Assembly (NCBI GenBank): GCA_027576995.1
Contig: JANBQC010000279.1
Coordinates: 1 to 35,303 of the forward strand
Length of the DNA: 35,303 nt
Direction: 5' to 3'
Source of the DNA: Dimargaris cristalligena
Taxonomy: Eukaryota > Kickxellomycota > Dimargaritomycetes > Dimargaritales > Dimargaritaceae
The translations under genes and the position numbers were made by a program. This document shows positions 4,823-30,363 of this stretch, in pieces (position 1 is the first letter of the stretch; each line of letters starts with the position of its first letter). The notes under the pieces were generated by a model. That model was not told the DNA's origin. It searched no databases and saw only the letters and a list, made by a program, of their open reading frames with translations.

Positions 4823-6682
4823 TCAGCTTTTCTTGACTTTGATGGTCGAATCACCGTTAAAAATCCAGATACCACAAAATACTAAAAAGCTGACCATCAA
4901 GGAGCCAGCGCTGATGTAGTACGGGTAGGCCGATACCAAATAGCGATCGTATTCATTGTGTTTGAAGGGTAGGATGGGGACCACATCAGTATGCTTCACG
5001 TGCGACAGTCCGCGGCGGAGGAAGTCGACCTTGAAGGTGAAAACACCGTAAACATCGGGCAGATCAATGATCTGACTGTAGACCGCCGCAGTACCAGTGC
5101 GCGACTCGGCCTCGAGAGTCTGGCGAACGTAGGGGTCCAACATGACGGCCTCGAATTGGAGTTGGTTCACCTGGGCTGGGTGCCACTGGTCAGCATAGTA
5201 CTCACTGAGGTTAATCGAGTACTTGATGCGGTCGCTAACGCGGAATGATCCGGGATTGGCGCTGGGGTTCGATTCCTTCTTCTCATCGCTTTCATTCGGT
5301 CCCACCACATGGTAGCTGACGGAATTAACCCGCACGACGCTCTTTTCCTGGAAGGTCCATTCAGTCAAATCCCGCACAAACTGATCGTTGCCATTGGGTT
5401 TGGGGGAGGTAAGGACCGTAGACGAGGGAACCGGGGTAGCGAAAAAGGCATCGCTGAAGAGGCTAGTGGAGCCTACCACCATGACTCGGGCATTATTACG
5501 GGCCTGAAAGGCACTGACTAGGTGCATTTTGGAGCCAGATAAAAGGCTATCCTTGGAAGTGACGACCTGGCCTTCGGAGGTATCAAAGGAATAGGTGGTC
5601 GGATACCCAGTCAGCACAGACCACAGCATAGTCGGTTGGGAGTTGGTCATGTGGCGGTGTCCCACGCCTTGGTAGAGAATCGGACCACCTTGGCGCACTT
5701 GATCGCCTACAATGTAGGTAGAATTGGTGTACTGATCGGTCAGAATGCGGGTGTGGTTCTCCGGATCACGTACTCCGGCTTCGGTCTCCGGTGCGGGCAG
5801 ATAGTGGAAATGATCAACTGCTACGTTTCCCCTCAAGTCAAAGTCAATCCCAAGCTGCTTGGCAAAATCCCGCTGGGCCCCGCCAAAATCTGATCCCGCA
5901 GCCATGACAATATTGCCACCATCATCGATAAACTCGACCAGGGATTTGGCCGTAATTCCGTTACCGAGTCCTGGTAGGGGAAAGTCGGCATATTAGGTCG
6001 GGATTTCATAGTAATAGGGTATACATGAAGAAAGGGTTAATTGCGAATTTAAAGGGAAGGTGTGTGATATATGTAACAGGTGCTCGACTCAACCATAGTG
6101 CCTCTCAATAATAAACTTACGTTTGGCTTTGGGGGCAAGAAGGACAAGGTGGTCGAATTGACGCTCGCCATAAACAAAAAGATTGAGTTTGTTCGAAGTC
6201 GCCGTTTGAAAGGTGACTGAGAAGCCGCGCGCTACAGAAGTCCAACAGGAATACCGGAATAGTCAACCCGAGGGAGTCCGCAAGGAGATCGGATCATTAA
6301 ATACATGAATATATAGGGAGAGGGGAAGGTCGACATTGAATAGACGTCGCTTATTGTATGGTCAGAAGCCGGCCCAAAGACTATATACGTCAGTAATATC
6401 AAACCACTTCTTAAAAGGTTATACTGGTAAATAGGTGCTTGGAATGAAGCACATCATCCAGGCGGACTTTAGAAGGTGTTGATAGAGACCAGGCGAACGA
6501 CGGCAATGATAGATGTTCTTACATTTTAGGGATTCGACGAATCGGCCATAATCTTCGGGCTTGGCCTCAGTAGCCTTGGGTAGCACGAGTAATGCACGAT
6601 CGCCAGTTAGGGACTTGGCTTGGCCTTCGGGTATAGATGTATAGGCCAGCGTAGCGGCCAGTAAAAGATGGAAGAACCGCAT
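4823..6682 (-). CDS. WBP1: Oligosaccharyltransferase subunit OST48/WBP1, three exons
   Basis: This is the OST48/Wbp1 subunit of the ER oligosaccharyltransferase, which transfers the lipid-linked glycan to asparagines of nascent proteins. Exons are 6682-6523, 6231-6121 and 5970-4823. Introns are 6522-6232 (GTAAGA...TAG) and 6120-5971 (GTAAGT...CAG), both phase 1. The product is 472 aa, close to the family length. Residues 1-22 form a signal peptide. SLKSRGFSVTF (51-61) and FIDDGGNIVMAAGSDFG (from 104) match the family's N-terminal domain. QARNNARVMVVGS, LPDVYGVFTFKVD and the PYY before the membrane span match the middle and C-terminal parts. One membrane segment lies at about 441-461. The cytosolic tail ends KVKKS, with lysines at -3 and -5, fitting a KxKxx ER-retrieval signal. 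The start was chosen because the signal peptide follows at once and the context has G at -3. Family assignment is secure; splice sites are inferred from frame and homology. Confidence 0.95.
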
Positions 6683-10397: not shown

Positions 10398-13300
10398 TTA
10401 GGTTTGTTTCGTTCGTTTTCGTTTAACCGCCGAGAGGCTCATTGTTTTACCTGGCCGGGAAGTAGTAGTCCGGGTCAAGCGGGGTGTTTCACTAACGGAT
10501 GGGGATAAGGATGGGGTCGAGGACGTATCGCCGGGCCGGGGCGACGGGCTCATTTTACGCTTGGTTGACTGCGGGGTCGTTAGCTGGGCCATGTCGCTGA
10601 CTTTAGGGTTGAGCACCTTCGACATTAAAGCAAGGTAGGTGGTTTGGACCAGGGGCAGGTCAATCATGGTTTGCCCAATGGCCTTCAGTTCACCCACCGC
10701 AGGATCCATACGCCCCTTGTTTTTGCCTTTACTGCTTGGGCGGTTACATATCCAAGGGGGTAAACCCGTGGGGACGCCGTGTTGGTCGTGATCGACGGTT
10801 AGGAAATTGTGGATAAATTCGGTCGTGACGCATAGGCATTGCTGTTCTACTACCAAAATGTCCAACATATCGCGGCGGAGCTGGTTAACCACGTCCTTGT
10901 CCACAATAAGGTGGGTAAATACCTGGGTAGCCAGGGTGCGGAGTTTCTCGCGTTGCTCGCTAATTTTACAGGCAACGACCTGCGCCCCGCCCGCCTGGAT
11001 TATGCGCGTGTAGCAGTCGAGTTTACGGTCACTGGCGCATAGTAAAACCCGCCAAGCCACGAAGGCGCCCCGCACGGAGTGGGTGGTCCGACTTGATTTG
11101 GTCAAATGTTCCCTCCACTGTTGTGCGGCAAAGGCCAAATTCGCCTCATCCGGGGGGATATTATGGTTCTGTGACCATTCATAGGGGGTTTCGTCTAGAA
11201 ACTTACCCTGTTTGGCACTCTCTTCGAGATAGCTAGGTTGCAGAACCCTAAGTTAAGTTATCGTAAATCGGATATTATAGAATAGCGGAGAATTAGTACT
11301 AATTTATCATTCGAGTTATTCAGGAAACTCCAAATGGGGCCCTATCATTTTATGCAGAAAATTCACAAACAGATATACATATGAATTTCAACTTACCATA
11401 ATCCCATCGAAATTGCCGCAATCAGTTTCTCGCTACGATTGGCGTACCCGGCAATCAGGTGGGTACAGGTAGGGTCGAACCCGTCCTTATCAACCACCCG
11501 ACCGCCCAGTTTTTCTAAGAGCGCGACGATTTTCTTGCGCTTGACGGGCGGAATACTGGATAGTTGAAAGATACGGACTTTAGCGGGCGGAGCAGTCCTA
11601 TTCCTGCTTTGTTTCGAAGGCGACGAGCTCCTAGAATTAACCGACAGGGATGCGTCGCGTAAGGAAATGGGAGGGGGCTCCGAGCCTAGCGAGTCCAAAT
11701 TGGAATCGTTCTCGACCGACTTGGAATTAGCGGCGCGGGTCGACAAGATGTCTGATGTAGTAGTCGTTGCTGGCTTTGCAGCCTCCCCGCCGTCCGATAA
11801 ATGGGTGGCGGATGATGGTAATATTCGGGCGTCCAAGTCAGATGAGGTAAGCGCAGTTTCAAAGAGGGACAGGTCGCTATCGGCTCGGGGTAAGGGGGCC
11901 ACAGGTGGTACACCCAAGGTTTTGCCCGACCGTGGAACAGTTGGGACAGTGAGGGCTGCGGCAGAGGTTGGGGACAACCCTGACTCCAGGAACGGATTCT
12001 CATAATGGGTATCAATCCCAACTTGGCTGCCAGTTCCCTGGTGATTCCCGGGGGTCTGCGTGCTGCAGCCTGCCGAAGTACCCGATGGCATTGGTGACGC
12101 AGCAGCCTCGGAGGCCGTGCTACTATTGCTTGCATTGCTATTGGACCTATGGTGCGAAGTATCCCTTAGGCGATTAAGTAGTAGGCTTCGTTCCCGCTGG
12201 GCCTCGGGGTCTTGGTATTGGACCGTTAATTGTTCTTGTGTCATTAGGAATAGAGCCGGGCTCATTCCGCCCGTTTCCGCACCGGGGGCAGGTGGGACTG
12301 GTGTCGACTGGGCCAGGCTATTCCCTGAATCCGGGCGCGCCGATGGCTGTGGGGCGGTAGTCGTAGGTGTGGTGGCCACCTCAGTCCATACAGGCGACTT
12401 GGCTTCAACTACAGTAGCGGGTGCCATAGTAGTAGTAGTAGTGGTGGTGGAGGTGGTGGTAGCCGTAACTTTCAGCTCCTCTGGGCCTCGGTAGCGGCGC
12501 TTTAGGGATATTTTTGGGTCTCGCAGGGTCGGCATTTTCCCCAACAGAGTCTCGATTTCGGAGGCGTAGTCCTTGACTGGTACCGCAGGGACGGGGTGAG
12601 TAGGCGGGGGAGGGGGCAGACTGGCCTCAGGGGTTGCTGGGGAGGCCGATTGAACAATAATGCTAGGGGTCTGAGGCATTGTTGGTGGGTGACTTACAGC
12701 CGCTGGAGGCGGCGTTGGTGTGGGTGGTACGGCAGCCGTAACGATTGGAGTGGAGGGTCTGGCATTCGGCTCATCAGCAGCGTTAGGGAGGGCAGGTTGG
12801 AGATTTAATAATAAACAGGGGTTGAATGTATGGGGAAAGCCCGATACCGACAACCGGCGGCCTTCTTCGAGACAGCGGTAAAGCCACCAGGGAGAGACAA
12901 TCAGTTTATGCATACCCCGGGCCTGCTTGAACTCTTTGAAAGTCTCCTGCACCCGATTGCCCTGGTGTATATAATGGGTGCACGAGTCGTTCAGGGACCA
13001 TACTACATGGGCTCCCATGCGGCGGGCCAAGTCGGTTAGTTCGGATCGCCGGTGATTGATCCGAGTGCTTATATAGAGTACAGCGCCTCGCAATATTGAT
13101 TCGGGTGAAGGGGGGGTGTTGGAATCTGTAGCCGAAAACGCGCTCCAAGCCGAATCTCCTGAATGCTGATAATGAGGTGAATGCAATGAGGCGGACAATA
13201 ATGGCTGGCCCGTGACACGGGCCATAATTTCACGAGTGGGGGTTTTCAGGTCCAGTAGGGCATCGGTGATGTCGAATTGAAGGCCAGAGGGGGAATCGAG

Positions 13301-15904
13301 GCTGAAGCGGGCGTCCCGGGTATGGCCACCAAGAACAGGGTGCATGGGAGTCCCTAGGGGAGTATGAGAGGCCGACAGGGCCAGTGAAATAGCTGGGGTC
13401 GGAGTTAAGGGCTCGGCTACGCTCACGGCTGGAGTGGTACTTGAGCTCGGGTCGGCTGTTCGCCCAGCTGTGGAAGGAGTGAAGGTTTCGTAGAAATTCA
13501 AATGTACTGGTGTAACGGGGGCCGGTTGCCCGGCGGGTGTTAACAAATGGCTAATCGGGGGTGAAGCTGGTTTGCTTGGGTTTATCTCAGGATGTAGTTC
13601 GACGGAAGGCTCGTCCGGCGGTGACTGTTCAACGGGACGGGCCAGTTGGTACACCCAGTCTGCCCCATGGACGGGGATGCCCCATTCCAGGGCCTTGGTA
13701 TATTTGGCTCCCGAGGCGTGCAGAGCCACTAGGTGGGTGTGCCGCCGGGAGAATTTCACATTGCACGCGACTCCGAGGGTATTAAGGAGCTTGAGAAGGT
13801 GCCCCCGTTCGAGACCTTCAAACCCACTAATGCTGATCAAACAAGATGAGAGGGCAGACAACGGCCGCGGAACTTCAAGGGGTCGGTAGTGGATCGCACT
13901 GTATTCATCATATACAATATGATCTTCTAAGCATTTTTCCAGCCAGCACTCGGTTACAATGTGCAGAGTTGAGCGGCCATCGGCTAGGACAGGGGTATGC
14001 CGGGTCCGAGTTAGGAGGGCCTTGAAACGGTGCGGCTGGGGGACAGCATCGGCCGAGGAACCCCCAAGAGGGGTAATGATGTAGACGACTTTAGATGGTG
14101 ATGATTCACGGGTTCCTGAAGGGAAAGGCATACTTCGCAATTGATCGAGGACCGCGGCTGACTGATCCGATAACAACAGGTCCAAATCACTGTTGGTGAG
14201 GGCTGATTCCCAGATGCGGCCCCCGTGTTGGGTAATGACTCGGTGTAGTACGGCTAGCTGCTGTGAACTGAAATACAGGGTTATAAAAAGCACATGGGCC
14301 AAAAGAGCTGGGGTCTCGTTATTCGCCGACTGGATAGCCTTCGGACTCTGCTCTCTCAATGGATCTGGCAAAAGGGCTGGTAAAGGGACTGAGCCGGTAC
14401 ATGGTGTGGCCATAGTGCGACTAAGTAATGGGTGGACTTCACCGGCTATTTGGGGCCCAACTCGGCGAATGTAGGGCGAGTCAGGAGGACCATTCTTAGT
14501 AAATTCCGAGGTGAAGTCGTGACACGATGACTTGGCCCGCCGAATGGTATTGGGGGGCTTAGATTCCAACACCCCGGGCACGGGGTTACTTGGCGACAGG
14601 TAGCTAGGTGTATTTATATTTTCGGCTGAGGCCGTCATTAGATTGGTTTTGCCAGAGAGGGTTGAGATGGAGGCCAGTCGCCGGGAAAGTGGGGTAGGGG
14701 TGTCGGGATTCGCACCAGTTTCCCGCCGCGCCAACAAATCGACTTCCATTGCAAATTCATTGGGGGGCTCGACGGTTCGAGGAAAGGAAATCAGATAAGG
14801 AGTAATGGGCAATTGCGTGCGCTGATGGTAACAGTCCCGCAGCCAGCGCTGATTTACGATATGGAAGCCAGAGCTGAGGTGGGAGGTGAGCAAGATGCGG
14901 TCCTTGGCGGAAAGCTGGGAGCTAAAGGTGACGAAATGGGTAATGGAGGCCGCTGGGAACCGATTGAGTCTAACCCCACCTCCTTCGTCGATTATTTTTT
15001 TCAGGTGCAGCAACTTTGTGGGGCTGAATCCGTAGCCCAGATAAATGAAGCAACCGGCCAAATAGTGGGGGGCACTACCCCCCTCTAATTTAATGGGGAT
15101 ATGTAAGTGCGTCCCAGTGACGGGCTGAGGCTCGGGCGTAGGAGTGAAAGTGGGAGTAGGTGACCGGGCGGTAACTGCGGTGGAATTATCCTCAGCCGGA
15201 CCCTTTGGGGGGTCCGTCTCGCCCATTCGACCATCGGAGGCGGCCCGGCATAACGGCCGGCGAGGGGGGGAGTTCGGACCCTCGGGGGCAGTCGCCGCGC
15301 GTTGGAGTTTCGAGCCTGTGGAAGAGTGGGCCACTGGTACGGGATATAGGGATTCGTCCGCACAGGCCCCCATCTTCACGCTATCGTGGACCCAGTCCAT
15401 ATTGACGATATGAGTGCCGCCCCACCCCTGTGCCAACCGGTACTTTTCCCCCCTAGCGGCTTGGGCCACCAAATGGGTGCAGCGGGGAGTGGCAGACCGG
15501 TCGTACAGGCCGCCATGGTGGGTGATAAGGCCCTGAATTTCCGACCGAAGCGTCGTGCTGGGGAACCCGGTGAGATGCACGCGGCAGCCAGCGAAGGGGG
15601 GTAAAAGGAACCGCTTAAGGGTCACTTCAGGATCCAAATGCGCGGAAGAAGGAGTGACCTCCTCCGCTAGGGCGTGACGGTGGGTGTACACCCATTCGGG
15701 TCGCACAATCGGCTTGGAGACCCGGACGGCTAGTTTGTACTTGTCTGAGCCGGTTTTTTCCGCGATAAGCACGTTGACGTCTTCGGTGTAATCGCCCGTA
15801 TACCGACCACCACACTCTTGGATGGCAGCAGCCAGCTCTTGCCGCTGAGTAGGGCCAAGTCCCGTACTGCATATTAAATAGCGATTCAATGGACCAGGAG
15901 CCAT
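10398..15904 (-). CDS. TOPBP1: TopBP1-like multi-BRCT checkpoint/replication scaffold
   Basis: This encodes a 1785-aa TopBP1 homologue, a nuclear phosphopeptide-binding scaffold for replication initiation and ATR checkpoint activation. Exon 1 is 15904-11397, the intron 11396-11248 (GTAAGT...TAG, phase 2, inside BRCT7), exon 2 11247-10398. Approximate domains: BRCT1 7-92 (T14, K55), BRCT2 103-190 (T112, K154), BRCT3 281-370, BRCT4 534-675, BRCT5 685-760 (S693, K734), BRCT6 937-1032, BRCT7 1443-1520 (S1449 or S1450, K1493), BRCT8 1562-1655. The named residues match the phosphate-binding Ser/Thr and Lys of human BRCT1, 2, 5 and 7. VQYQDPEAQRERS (1228-1240) aligns with the ATR-activation motif, with Y1230 at the human W1145 position. 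BRCT0 is absent. Linkers are rich in Ser/Thr-Pro and include a threonine run near 1149-1159. A basic KRKRTK at the C-terminus may be a nuclear signal. Yeast Dpb11 and Rad4 have only four BRCTs. Confidence 0.95.
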
Positions 15905-28295: not shown

Positions 28296-30239
28296 TTAGA
28301 GATCCATTTGATAACCATCGTCCTCATCGTCCTCGTCCGAAAAGAAATCATCTTCGAAAGTTTGCAGACAACTGTCGAGCTCCTTGGAGGACACTCTCGT
28401 AATTTCTAGGGCACTGGCCATGGGGAAATCATGGCCCATGCACTGAGAAGCCTTGAGGAGTCCAGTCAAGGCGATAAGGGTAGGCGATAAACCCACATTA
28501 CTATGATCCAACAACGCTAGCTTCCAAAATTCGAGTGATTCTTCGTAGAGGGTGGGGGATAACGAGGCGAATTGCAAATCCTGGGGACTCGCGCACCGTG
28601 GACTGGGGAACACCACATGGATATCGCCGGATGCCAATGACCAGGGAGCGGGGGATGGTAATGAAGGTACGGGCACCATGGGATACATTTGGCCATTTTG
28701 TAGGGATGGGCTGGCGTCGGGCTGGGACTCGCAGGGACTGGGGTAATCCTGGGGCCCTTCATATGGCTTAGGGTTAGATTCCGCCGTTCGGCCCCAGTTG
28801 CAACTGCAGGTCAGGCATTTCAGCAATTCCTCGGCGATGGCGTGAGGGGTGATGACGAATAAATTCCAGTCGAGGGTATCTAAAATGTGTTTTTCGGCGG
28901 CAATGACGTCGCTGGTGGAGCACTGGTACATGGTTAGAAACTGGGCAAAAGTGCGAGCGGACGGAACGTAACAGTCTTCGCTGAATTTGGCGGCCAAGTA
29001 GAGACAGGTTACGGCAATGAGCTGTTGGTCAAAGGTGGCCCCGTAGGAGCTGCAGTAGGCCCGCGATGAACACATGGAGATCAGGGTACTGGGCAATGTT
29101 AGGGGTGACTTGGGATCCGTGGGACCGGTCAGGGCGCTATAATAGCGATCCATATAGGTGATGGCCGTGTAGACGGTTTCCGAATGGTACTGGAGGTCTT
29201 CGTGATCGTTGATTTGAATGATGCGATTTACTAGGCCCAGACGAACCGTGTGGTGGAGACCTGTCTGGTTAGGGGTGACCGACTGGGGCTGGGCAGCGGG
29301 AAACGCGGAATCCACCGAGAGGGTGGAGGAGGAGGAGGCCACACAGGCCAAGACCGGGGGGCGATTTTTGAGAAAGTAATCGGAGTGAGGGGAAGCGATG
29401 GATTCGAAGGGCTGGGCGGTCAGAAAGTGCGAATGAATACCGTGGTGGGGGGCCTTGTCCAGGAGAGTCCGGAGGGATCGACTGGCCGGCCCACAGCAGC
29501 ATGGGGAAGACACGTTAGGATGGGGCAGGGAGGGGACGGGGGGGTGGAAGGGAACCCGTTCGAAAGAGCGCTTCTTGGATGGGGTATGGCCGGTATAGCG
29601 GGTGGGGGAGGGTCGGGAAATAGACAAATCCGTAGCATCACTGTAGGAAAACGAAAGGGTCTGGCACATGGTGTCGGCGGTGACGGCGAGGAGTTGGTTG
29701 GACGAGCGACGTTTGCGCTTAAGGGGACCAATGGACGCAGCGGGGACGGGGTAGCACCTGGGGGTCACCGACTCCCAGTGCGCTTCGGCGGAAACGGGGG
29801 GCGGGGAGAGAGACACGAGAGCGGAATGGAAGTTGGAGACGGACACGGCGGAGTCAGACGGAGTATCGACGATGGTGGAAGCCAAGGAAGTGGAAGATAC
29901 GATGGATAGGGAAGAGGTCATCCGGCGGGGATAAAGGCGGGGAGGGGAGTACATGAAGGAAGTGCTCACGGGAAGGGCAGCGGCCTCCTTATGGCCAGGC
30001 CGATCCAGACCAATCAGAGAGGGGATAATTCCGGGAAGGGGGCAAGAGCGCCGCTTCATCCAAGGGGCATCGTACAAGACATTGGTGGGGGAGACGCTGG
30101 GGAATGCGGCCAAGGCACCACCCTCCCCCACAGCAATGCGGGGGGCCCAGGGGGCTTCCGCCGGGCGGGAGGGCAGCGGGGAGAACGGGCAGTGGGTCGA
30201 TGCATGGGACTCGAGCAGCTGGGCGGTGGACACGGCCAT
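28296..30239 (-). CDS. Cyclin with long disordered N-terminus (G1/D-type-like)
   Basis: This is a single-exon gene for a 647-aa cyclin, the regulatory partner of a cyclin-dependent kinase. The cyclin box spans about 327-476, with MDRYYS (363-368), AAKFSED (K418, E421), AAEKHIL (E449) and DWNLFVITPHAIAEELL. The last block resembles D-type cyclins (WNLxxxTPHDFIEHxL). The box is stretched by an insertion of about 25 residues after MDRYYS. A second helical repeat (about 563-602) fits the C-terminal cyclin fold. Residues 1-320 are Ser/Pro-rich, with basic clusters LKRKRRS (173-179) and PSKKRS (220-225) that may direct nuclear import. The tail (EDDFFSDEDDEDDGYQMDL) is very acidic. The start is the first in-frame ATG after a stop at 30323-30321; its context is strong (A at -3, G at +4). 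Cyclin identity is firm, the subtype less so. Confidence 0.9.
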   Translation of the reverse strand: MAVSTAQLLESHASTHCPFSPLPSRPAEAPWAPRIAVGEGGALAAFPSVSPTNVLYDAPWMKRRSCPLPGIIPSLIGLDRPGHKEAAALPVSTSFMYSPPRLYPRRMTSSLSIVSSTSLASTIVDTPSDSAVSVSNFHSALVSLSPPPVSAEAHWESVTPRCYPVPAASIGPLKRKRRSSNQLLAVTADTMCQTLSFSYSDATDLSISRPSPTRYTGHTPSKKRSFERVPFHPPVPSLPHPNVSSPCCCGPASRSLRTLLDKAPHHGIHSHFLTAQPFESIASPHSDYFLKNRPPVLACVASSSSTLSVDSAFPAAQPQSVTPNQTGLHHTVRLGLVNRIIQINDHEDLQYHSETVYTAITYMDRYYSALTGPTDPKSPLTLPSTLISMCSSRAYCSSYGATFDQQLIAVTCLYLAAKFSEDCYVPSARTFAQFLTMYQCSTSDVIAAEKHILDTLDWNLFVITPHAIAEELLKCLTCSCNWGRTAESNPKPYEGPQDYPSPCESQPDASPSLQNGQMYPMVPVPSLPSPAPWSLASGDIHVVFPSPRCASPQDLQFASLSPTLYEESLEFWKLALLDHSNVGLSPTLIALTGLLKASQCMGHDFPMASALEITRVSSKELDSCLQTFEDDFFSDEDDEDDGYQMDL

Positions 30240-30363
30240 GCTGGGCAGTATGATCCGATCCAAATGAGAGGGAACGGGGCGAAGGAAGAGCAGTTGTAGG
30301 GAAGAGTCGGATAGAGTAGACTAGAGGGAAATTAACGGGCGCGAAATATAAGAAGCACGACGA

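Follow-up and report, generated by a model that had tools for sequence, protein, structure and literature searches.

The fungus Dimargaris cristalligena very probably carries a single-copy TopBP1 orthologue that keeps the ancestral BRCT1/2-3-4/5-6-AAD-7/8 layout (AAD, the ATR-activation motif), from which the yeast lineage was reduced to BRCT1/2-4/5-AAD. The gene lies on the minus strand (15904-10398) of contig C279 (JANBQC010000279.1) in the 27.1-Mb assembly of this mycoparasite (Dimargaritales, Kickxellomycota); the window is the whole 35,303-nucleotide stretch analysed. Finding nearly the whole animal module set in an early-diverging fungus suggests loss in yeasts rather than addition in animals. 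In this paper we describe the gene structure, the domains, the pocket residues at four phospho-sites, the AAD motif and the domain-by-domain orthology of the product, which is a TopBP1 orthologue of a known kind in a domain state unexpected for a fungus.

Gene, domains and predicted function

The frame of exon 1 is open from the ATG at 15904 to the TGG at the donor GTAAGT and, once 11396-11248 is removed, carries on into exon 2 to a stop ending at 10398, giving a product of 1785 amino acids. The intron falls within a Trp codon of BRCT7, and alignment to human BRCT7/8 is gapless across the junction. The product and the 149-bp intron proposed in a preliminary description of this sequence are borne out by the deposited D. 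cristalligena protein BJ085DRAFT_39125 (P0001), which has equal length, the same exon join and one residue different, and by the orthologues of two sister species, D. verticillata (1810 amino acids) and Dispira simplex (1931 amino acids), which are continuous through the junction. The differing residue, 1405 in the linker part of exon 1, is S here and L in P0001, an allele, strain or amplification difference. The gene is single-copy, in that a genome scan at E<=0.01 gave just two other, weak matches (2.3e-5 and 0.005); the former is a BRCT7-like match at C257:14357-14662, inside a 1179-residue open frame.

Sequence searches of PDB matched BRCT1/2 (best E=4e-26), BRCT6 (2e-14), BRCT7/8 (5e-32) and BRCT4/5, the last by three chains at E from 7e-10 to 5e-9 whose best stretch is 648-760 and so is chiefly BRCT5. 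BRCT3 matched 1wf6 (E=1e-7), which PDB names only "similar to rad4/cut5 product" and which we take to be TopBP1 BRCT3. In the genome scan, BRCT8 was matched in exon 2 at 28.8 bits, above the Pfam cut-off, and nowhere else at E<=1. A fold search with a model of residues 1-780 returned BRCTs of XRCC1 and PARP4 nearest to BRCT3; the rows did not include a structure of TopBP1 BRCT3, and the result excludes nothing. With 12 vertebrate BRCT0 queries, no match better than E=0.03 was obtained in the window, and that one lay elsewhere than the gene; just upstream on the gene strand there was a single match at E=7.8 (BRCT1-2 control, 2e-30). PDB and Pfam matches confirm every domain that the preliminary description had placed (BRCT1/2, 3, 4/5, 6 and 7/8), including BRCT6, 7 and 8, for which it had named profile searches as the check; its PHTFNP after BRCT6, FQLSS, DPTCTHLI and TPYEW after BRCT7 are all in the translation, and no BRCT0 was found at the gene, in line with its statement.

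Phosphate-pocket equivalents occur at four phospho-sites (Table 1); for BRCT5 the comparison used residues that we take to be phosphate-binding, and S693 also holds in both sister species. The human reference residues elsewhere are those given for BRCT1 (T114, R121 and K155; PMC12661054), BRCT2 (K250; PMC6175577) and BRCT7 (K1317; PMC9288427). The protein has the features of the TopBP1/Dpb11/Rad4 family, namely a phosphate pocket in each of BRCT1 and 2, a central BRCT pair with a pocket in its second domain and, as predicted from sequence, an ATR-activation motif with an aromatic residue (Y1230). It also has the animal-type BRCT3, BRCT6 and BRCT7/8 tandem, shows no match to the BRCT0 of vertebrates and, with eight BRCTs and an internal AAD, departs from the yeast type of four BRCTs and a C-terminal AAD.

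Motifs were sought by scanning ungapped windows with vertebrate profiles, and significance was taken from 2000 shuffles of the linker. In the proteins of the three Dimargaritales and of Calcarisporiella no window scores better than the AAD, whose score is reached by 1, 13, 0 and 0 of 2000 shuffles (1/2000 in D. cristalligena); the counts for four ascomycete-type proteins are 35, 578, 0 and 1368. By hhalign the AAD gave P=0.025 at a probability of 2%, and the segment is helical, at low confidence, in the structure model. In S. pombe Rad4 the AAD aromatic is Tyr599 (PMC3386226), and Tyr is therefore compatible with function. A conserved pre-AAD element (DYxxEIExLL in the fungal proteins) had no significant vertebrate-profile match in any of the 8 proteins scanned.

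Judging from studies in animals and yeasts, the protein most likely works like animal TopBP1. BRCT1, 2 and 5 would dock phosphorylated partners such as the 9-1-1 clamp and Sld3/Treslin, the linker motif with Tyr1230 would activate ATR, and the C-terminal BRCT7/8 would provide an extra phosphopeptide site that is absent from yeasts. Profiles of Sld3 (4.8e-13) and Rad9 (2.3e-34) match in the same genome, and the main docking partners therefore exist.

Ancestry of the domain set

A maximum-likelihood tree was built from 92 BRCT domains of 13 proteins and one poppy protein, the former comprising three Dimargaritales, Calcarisporiella thermophila, S. japonicus Rad4, three ascomycete-type proteins (a label that rests on layout) and five of 20 vertebrates; it has 95 usable columns only, which do not resolve deep forks. 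Eight of the nine listed domain groups require a single origin, and support is 97/96 for B3, 99/99 for B6 and 97/81 for B8. B7 forms a 97/99 branch together with a C-terminal BRCT of the poppy protein, whose partner domain joins B8 (95/89) on a long branch. The poppy protein itself (P0005, Papaver californicum, residues 1219-1442) is a plant PHD-finger BRCT protein, and its two C-terminal BRCTs are those placed with BRCT7 and BRCT8 of TopBP1.

A protein search with the Calcarisporiella query returned itself and four relatives, S. japonicus Rad4 and the three ascomycete-type proteins. BRCT3 is absent in the four ascomycete-type proteins compared. Calcarisporiella thermophila, which stands in its own phylum, has BRCT1-6 and a terminal AAD, a state intermediate between the animal and yeast layouts. 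On the simplest reading of these sequences, BRCT7/8 are older than the plant-opisthokont split, the animal-fungal ancestor already had BRCT3 and 6, and the ascomycete line lost 3, 6, 7 and 8. The preliminary description had proposed an ancestor with eight or nine BRCTs, loss of the C-terminal ones in yeasts and retention here. The domain tree, with its plant pair, supports retention; BRCT0, which the ancestor may have had, was seen only in vertebrates among the proteins compared. The yeast loss stands for BRCT6-8 and has to be widened to the internal BRCT3, with Calcarisporiella in the intermediate state.

A review takes the opposite direction where it treats these modules (PMC8651625): compared with yeasts, BRCT3 is described there as an insertion and BRCT6 and BRCT7/8 as additions. 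BRCT3, 6, 7 and 8 would then be animal additions that Dimargaritales gained separately, through duplication or animal-to-fungus transfer, and it would agree with this that the full set was found in only three of the fungal proteins compared, all from Dimargaritales. We regard such a history as very improbable. In the tree each fungal domain sits with the animal domain of that name and not with a sister domain from its own protein (BRCT2 is unresolved), fungal B6, that of Calcarisporiella included, adjoins vertebrate B6 and is not nested within it, the poppy domains fall with B7 and B8, and domain order, AAD, main linker motif and pockets also agree with animals. Still more remote is an artefact, either a chimeric assembly or an exon 2 taken from another gene. 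In its favour, the sequencing of D. cristalligena described in PMC6784888, possibly for another assembly, started from single cells, a method that can yield chimeras. Against it, BRCT7 stays in frame and gapless through the junction, P0001 sits on a 20,171-base contig as against 35,303 here, two sister species share the arrangement, and the genome holds no second BRCT8-type match at E<=1.

Several points weigh against retention of a full, animal-like TopBP1. In the whole-protein Pfam scan BRCT8 reached 5.6e-5 and 23.5 bits, below the cut-off of 27; its structure model is less confident, and the alignments behind the model took in fish and frog TopBP1. Support for B7 by itself is low (75/41), and in the best tree the B2 domains do not form a single clade. 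Other fungi are thinly sampled, and even the orthologues of both sister species escaped a protein search that used the BRCT7/8 region. The AAD scan is fallible, as it recovers no motif in 2 of the 4 ascomycete-type proteins (asc28, 578/2000; asc30, 1368/2000). Two weak candidates are not claimed: a GINS-binding GINI core is the top hhalign alignment on the vertebrate core, yet at P=0.25 and with 223/2000 shuffles, and a first CIP2A-binding patch is the best window in the protein, yet with 121/2000 shuffles. The partner identities and ATR activation we infer by analogy, and profiles of Sld2, MTBP (MTBP_C) and ETAA1 had no match in the fungus's own genome; the controls were silent too, so absence is not shown.

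Predicted CIP2A-binding motif and candidate CIP2A gene

Human CIP2A is reported to bind TOPBP1 between BRCT5 and 6, at two patches, the short 778-796 and the longer 813-892, the latter narrowed by two-hybrid to 830-852 (PMC9288427). The BRCT5-6 linkers of the three Dimargaritales carry the motifs FDITDALLDLKTP, FDLTGVLLDLKTP and FDLDSALSALKTP, with FDVKDALAALETP as the vertebrate counterpart. A profile-profile comparison of the linkers gave P=7e-4, with the alignment on the main motif, and six mismatched linker pairings gave P of at least 0.42. The ungapped scan found the motif significant in two of the three, D. cristalligena (4/2000) and Dispira (2/2000), and not in D. verticillata (298/2000). 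An ascomycete-type Dpb11 (P0030, residues 658-676) has FRPPSALKNSFKSLDAPS after BRCT5, like the vertebrate CIP2A patch without its FD core and possibly a relic.

A candidate fungal CIP2A, with an ARM-type exon and coiled-coil exons downstream, is encoded in this genome on contig C421 (L009 775-2112; L015 4215-9762). The CIP2A_N profile matches the genome in one place, C421:13940-14248 (E=1.4e-4). For the 445-residue frame there, CIP2A is the best match both in Pfam (2.4e-5) and in PDB (5ufl, 4.5e-5) and the sole match below E=0.08. Downstream, exon L015:7791-8147 encodes a coiled coil by the heptad test (0/2000 shuffles) and is presumably spliced to the ARM exons. The candidate is like animal CIP2A in its N-terminal ARM-domain match and downstream coiled coil, the layout described in PMC9288427, and unlike it in that the match is under the curated cut-off and the conservation described in PMC9974998 is within animals, from human to lancelet.

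We give about an even chance that the CIP2A-TOPBP1 mitotic break-tethering partnership predates the animal-fungal split and survives here, with the TopBP1 motif (and BRCT7/8) on one side and a CIP2A encoded on C421 on the other. The core CIP2A motif in the linker and the candidate CIP2A gene together suggest that break-tethering may predate animals. Somewhat less likely than even is that the motif likeness is fortuitous or preserved for a different partner and that the C421 gene encodes an unrelated armadillo/coiled-coil protein. The CIP2A_N match is 23.6 bits against a curated 26.3 and did not improve when the gene model was lengthened from 445 to 605 residues, neither the first patch nor D. 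verticillata on its own reaches significance, hhalign gave the linker comparison a probability of just 26%, and P0030 has a higher score for patch 2 (31.2, 0/2000 shuffles) with no FD core. Against chance stand CIP2A at the top of both searches, the clear coiled coil, as in animal CIP2A, and the match of paired linkers where mismatched pairs have none. Open-access literature searches found no paper on fungal TopBP1 BRCT6 or on a fungal CIP2A armadillo homolog, weak evidence that these findings are unpublished.

The window also holds, on the minus strand, a gene for the OST48/WBP1 oligosaccharyltransferase subunit (4823-5992) and a gene with a cyclin N-terminal domain (28296-30320).

Table 1. 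Features of the D. cristalligena TopBP1 gene and product (window positions).
Feature	Position	Strand	Details
Exon 1	11397..15904	-	residues 1-1502 and first two bases of codon 1503; open reading frame and splice model; agrees with NCBI protein P0001
Intron	11396-11248	-	149 nt, phase 2, GTAAGT...TTAG; same join in P0001; orthologues run across
Exon 2	10398..11247	-	carries the rest of BRCT7, then BRCT8, a basic tail and the stop codon
BRCT1	15656..15892	-	residues 5-83; pocket T14/R21/K55 = human T114/R121/K155
BRCT2	15335..15613	-	residues 98-190; pocket T112/R120/K154 (K154 = human K250)
BRCT3	14777..15073	-	residues 278-376; 1wf6 match E=1e-7; tree group B3 97/96
Candidate GINS-binding GINI core, weak	14489..14524	-	residues 461-472, CHDFTSEFTKNG
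BRCT4	13901..14311	-	residues 532-668; lineage-specific insertion
BRCT5	13631..13858	-	residues 683-758; pocket S693/R700/K734
Candidate first CIP2A-binding patch, weak	13478..13519	-	residues 796-809, PVTPVHLNFYETFT
Main CIP2A-binding motif (predicted)	13235..13291	-	residues 872-890, PSGLQFDITDALLDLKTPT
BRCT6	12818..13111	-	residues 932-1029; PHTFNP at end
ATR-activation motif (AAD)	12161..12226	-	residues 1227-1248, TVQYQDPEAQRERSLLLNRLRD; Y1230 at human W1145
BRCT7	11166..11587	-	residues 1440-1530, intron inside; pocket S1449/K1493 (K1493 = human K1317)
BRCT8	10776..11072	-	residues 1562-1660; 3al2 match covers 1442-1660

Comparison with known TopBP1 proteins

Dpb11 and Rad4 are leading models of TopBP1, and the modules they are missing have been described as insertions or additions (PMC8651625). 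If yeast losses are the true history, the functions of BRCT6-8, and perhaps CIP2A tethering, would be ancestral and the yeasts simplified. In a fungus that has all these modules, the roles of BRCT7/8 and of the BRCT5-6 linker could be tested outside animals.

The BRCT pair of SLF1 is a weaker match to Dimargaris BRCT7/8 than TopBP1 is (2e-20 versus 5e-32), and the Dimargaris pair stands in a TopBP1 context. Calcarisporiella thermophila VTP21DRAFT_8776 (P0004) shares BRCT1-6 and an AAD with Tyr; unlike the Dimargaris protein, it ends directly after the AAD with no BRCT7/8, and a scan of its BRCT5-6 linker found no CIP2A-type motif. Rad4/Cut5 and Dpb11 share BRCT1/2, BRCT4/5 (yeast 3,4) and an AAD with an aromatic residue, and Rad4 is likewise without BRCT0; with four BRCTs and the AAD at the C-terminus (PMC6175577, PMC8651625), they differ from the Dimargaris protein, whose BRCTs number eight and whose AAD is internal. 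From vertebrate TopBP1 it differs in having no detected BRCT0, long linker insertions, Tyr for Trp in the AAD and an insertion in BRCT4, and with vertebrate TopBP1 it shares BRCT1/2, 3, 4/5 and 6, an AAD between BRCT6 and 7, BRCT7/8, the four phosphate-pocket sites and the predicted core CIP2A-binding motif in the BRCT5-6 linker.

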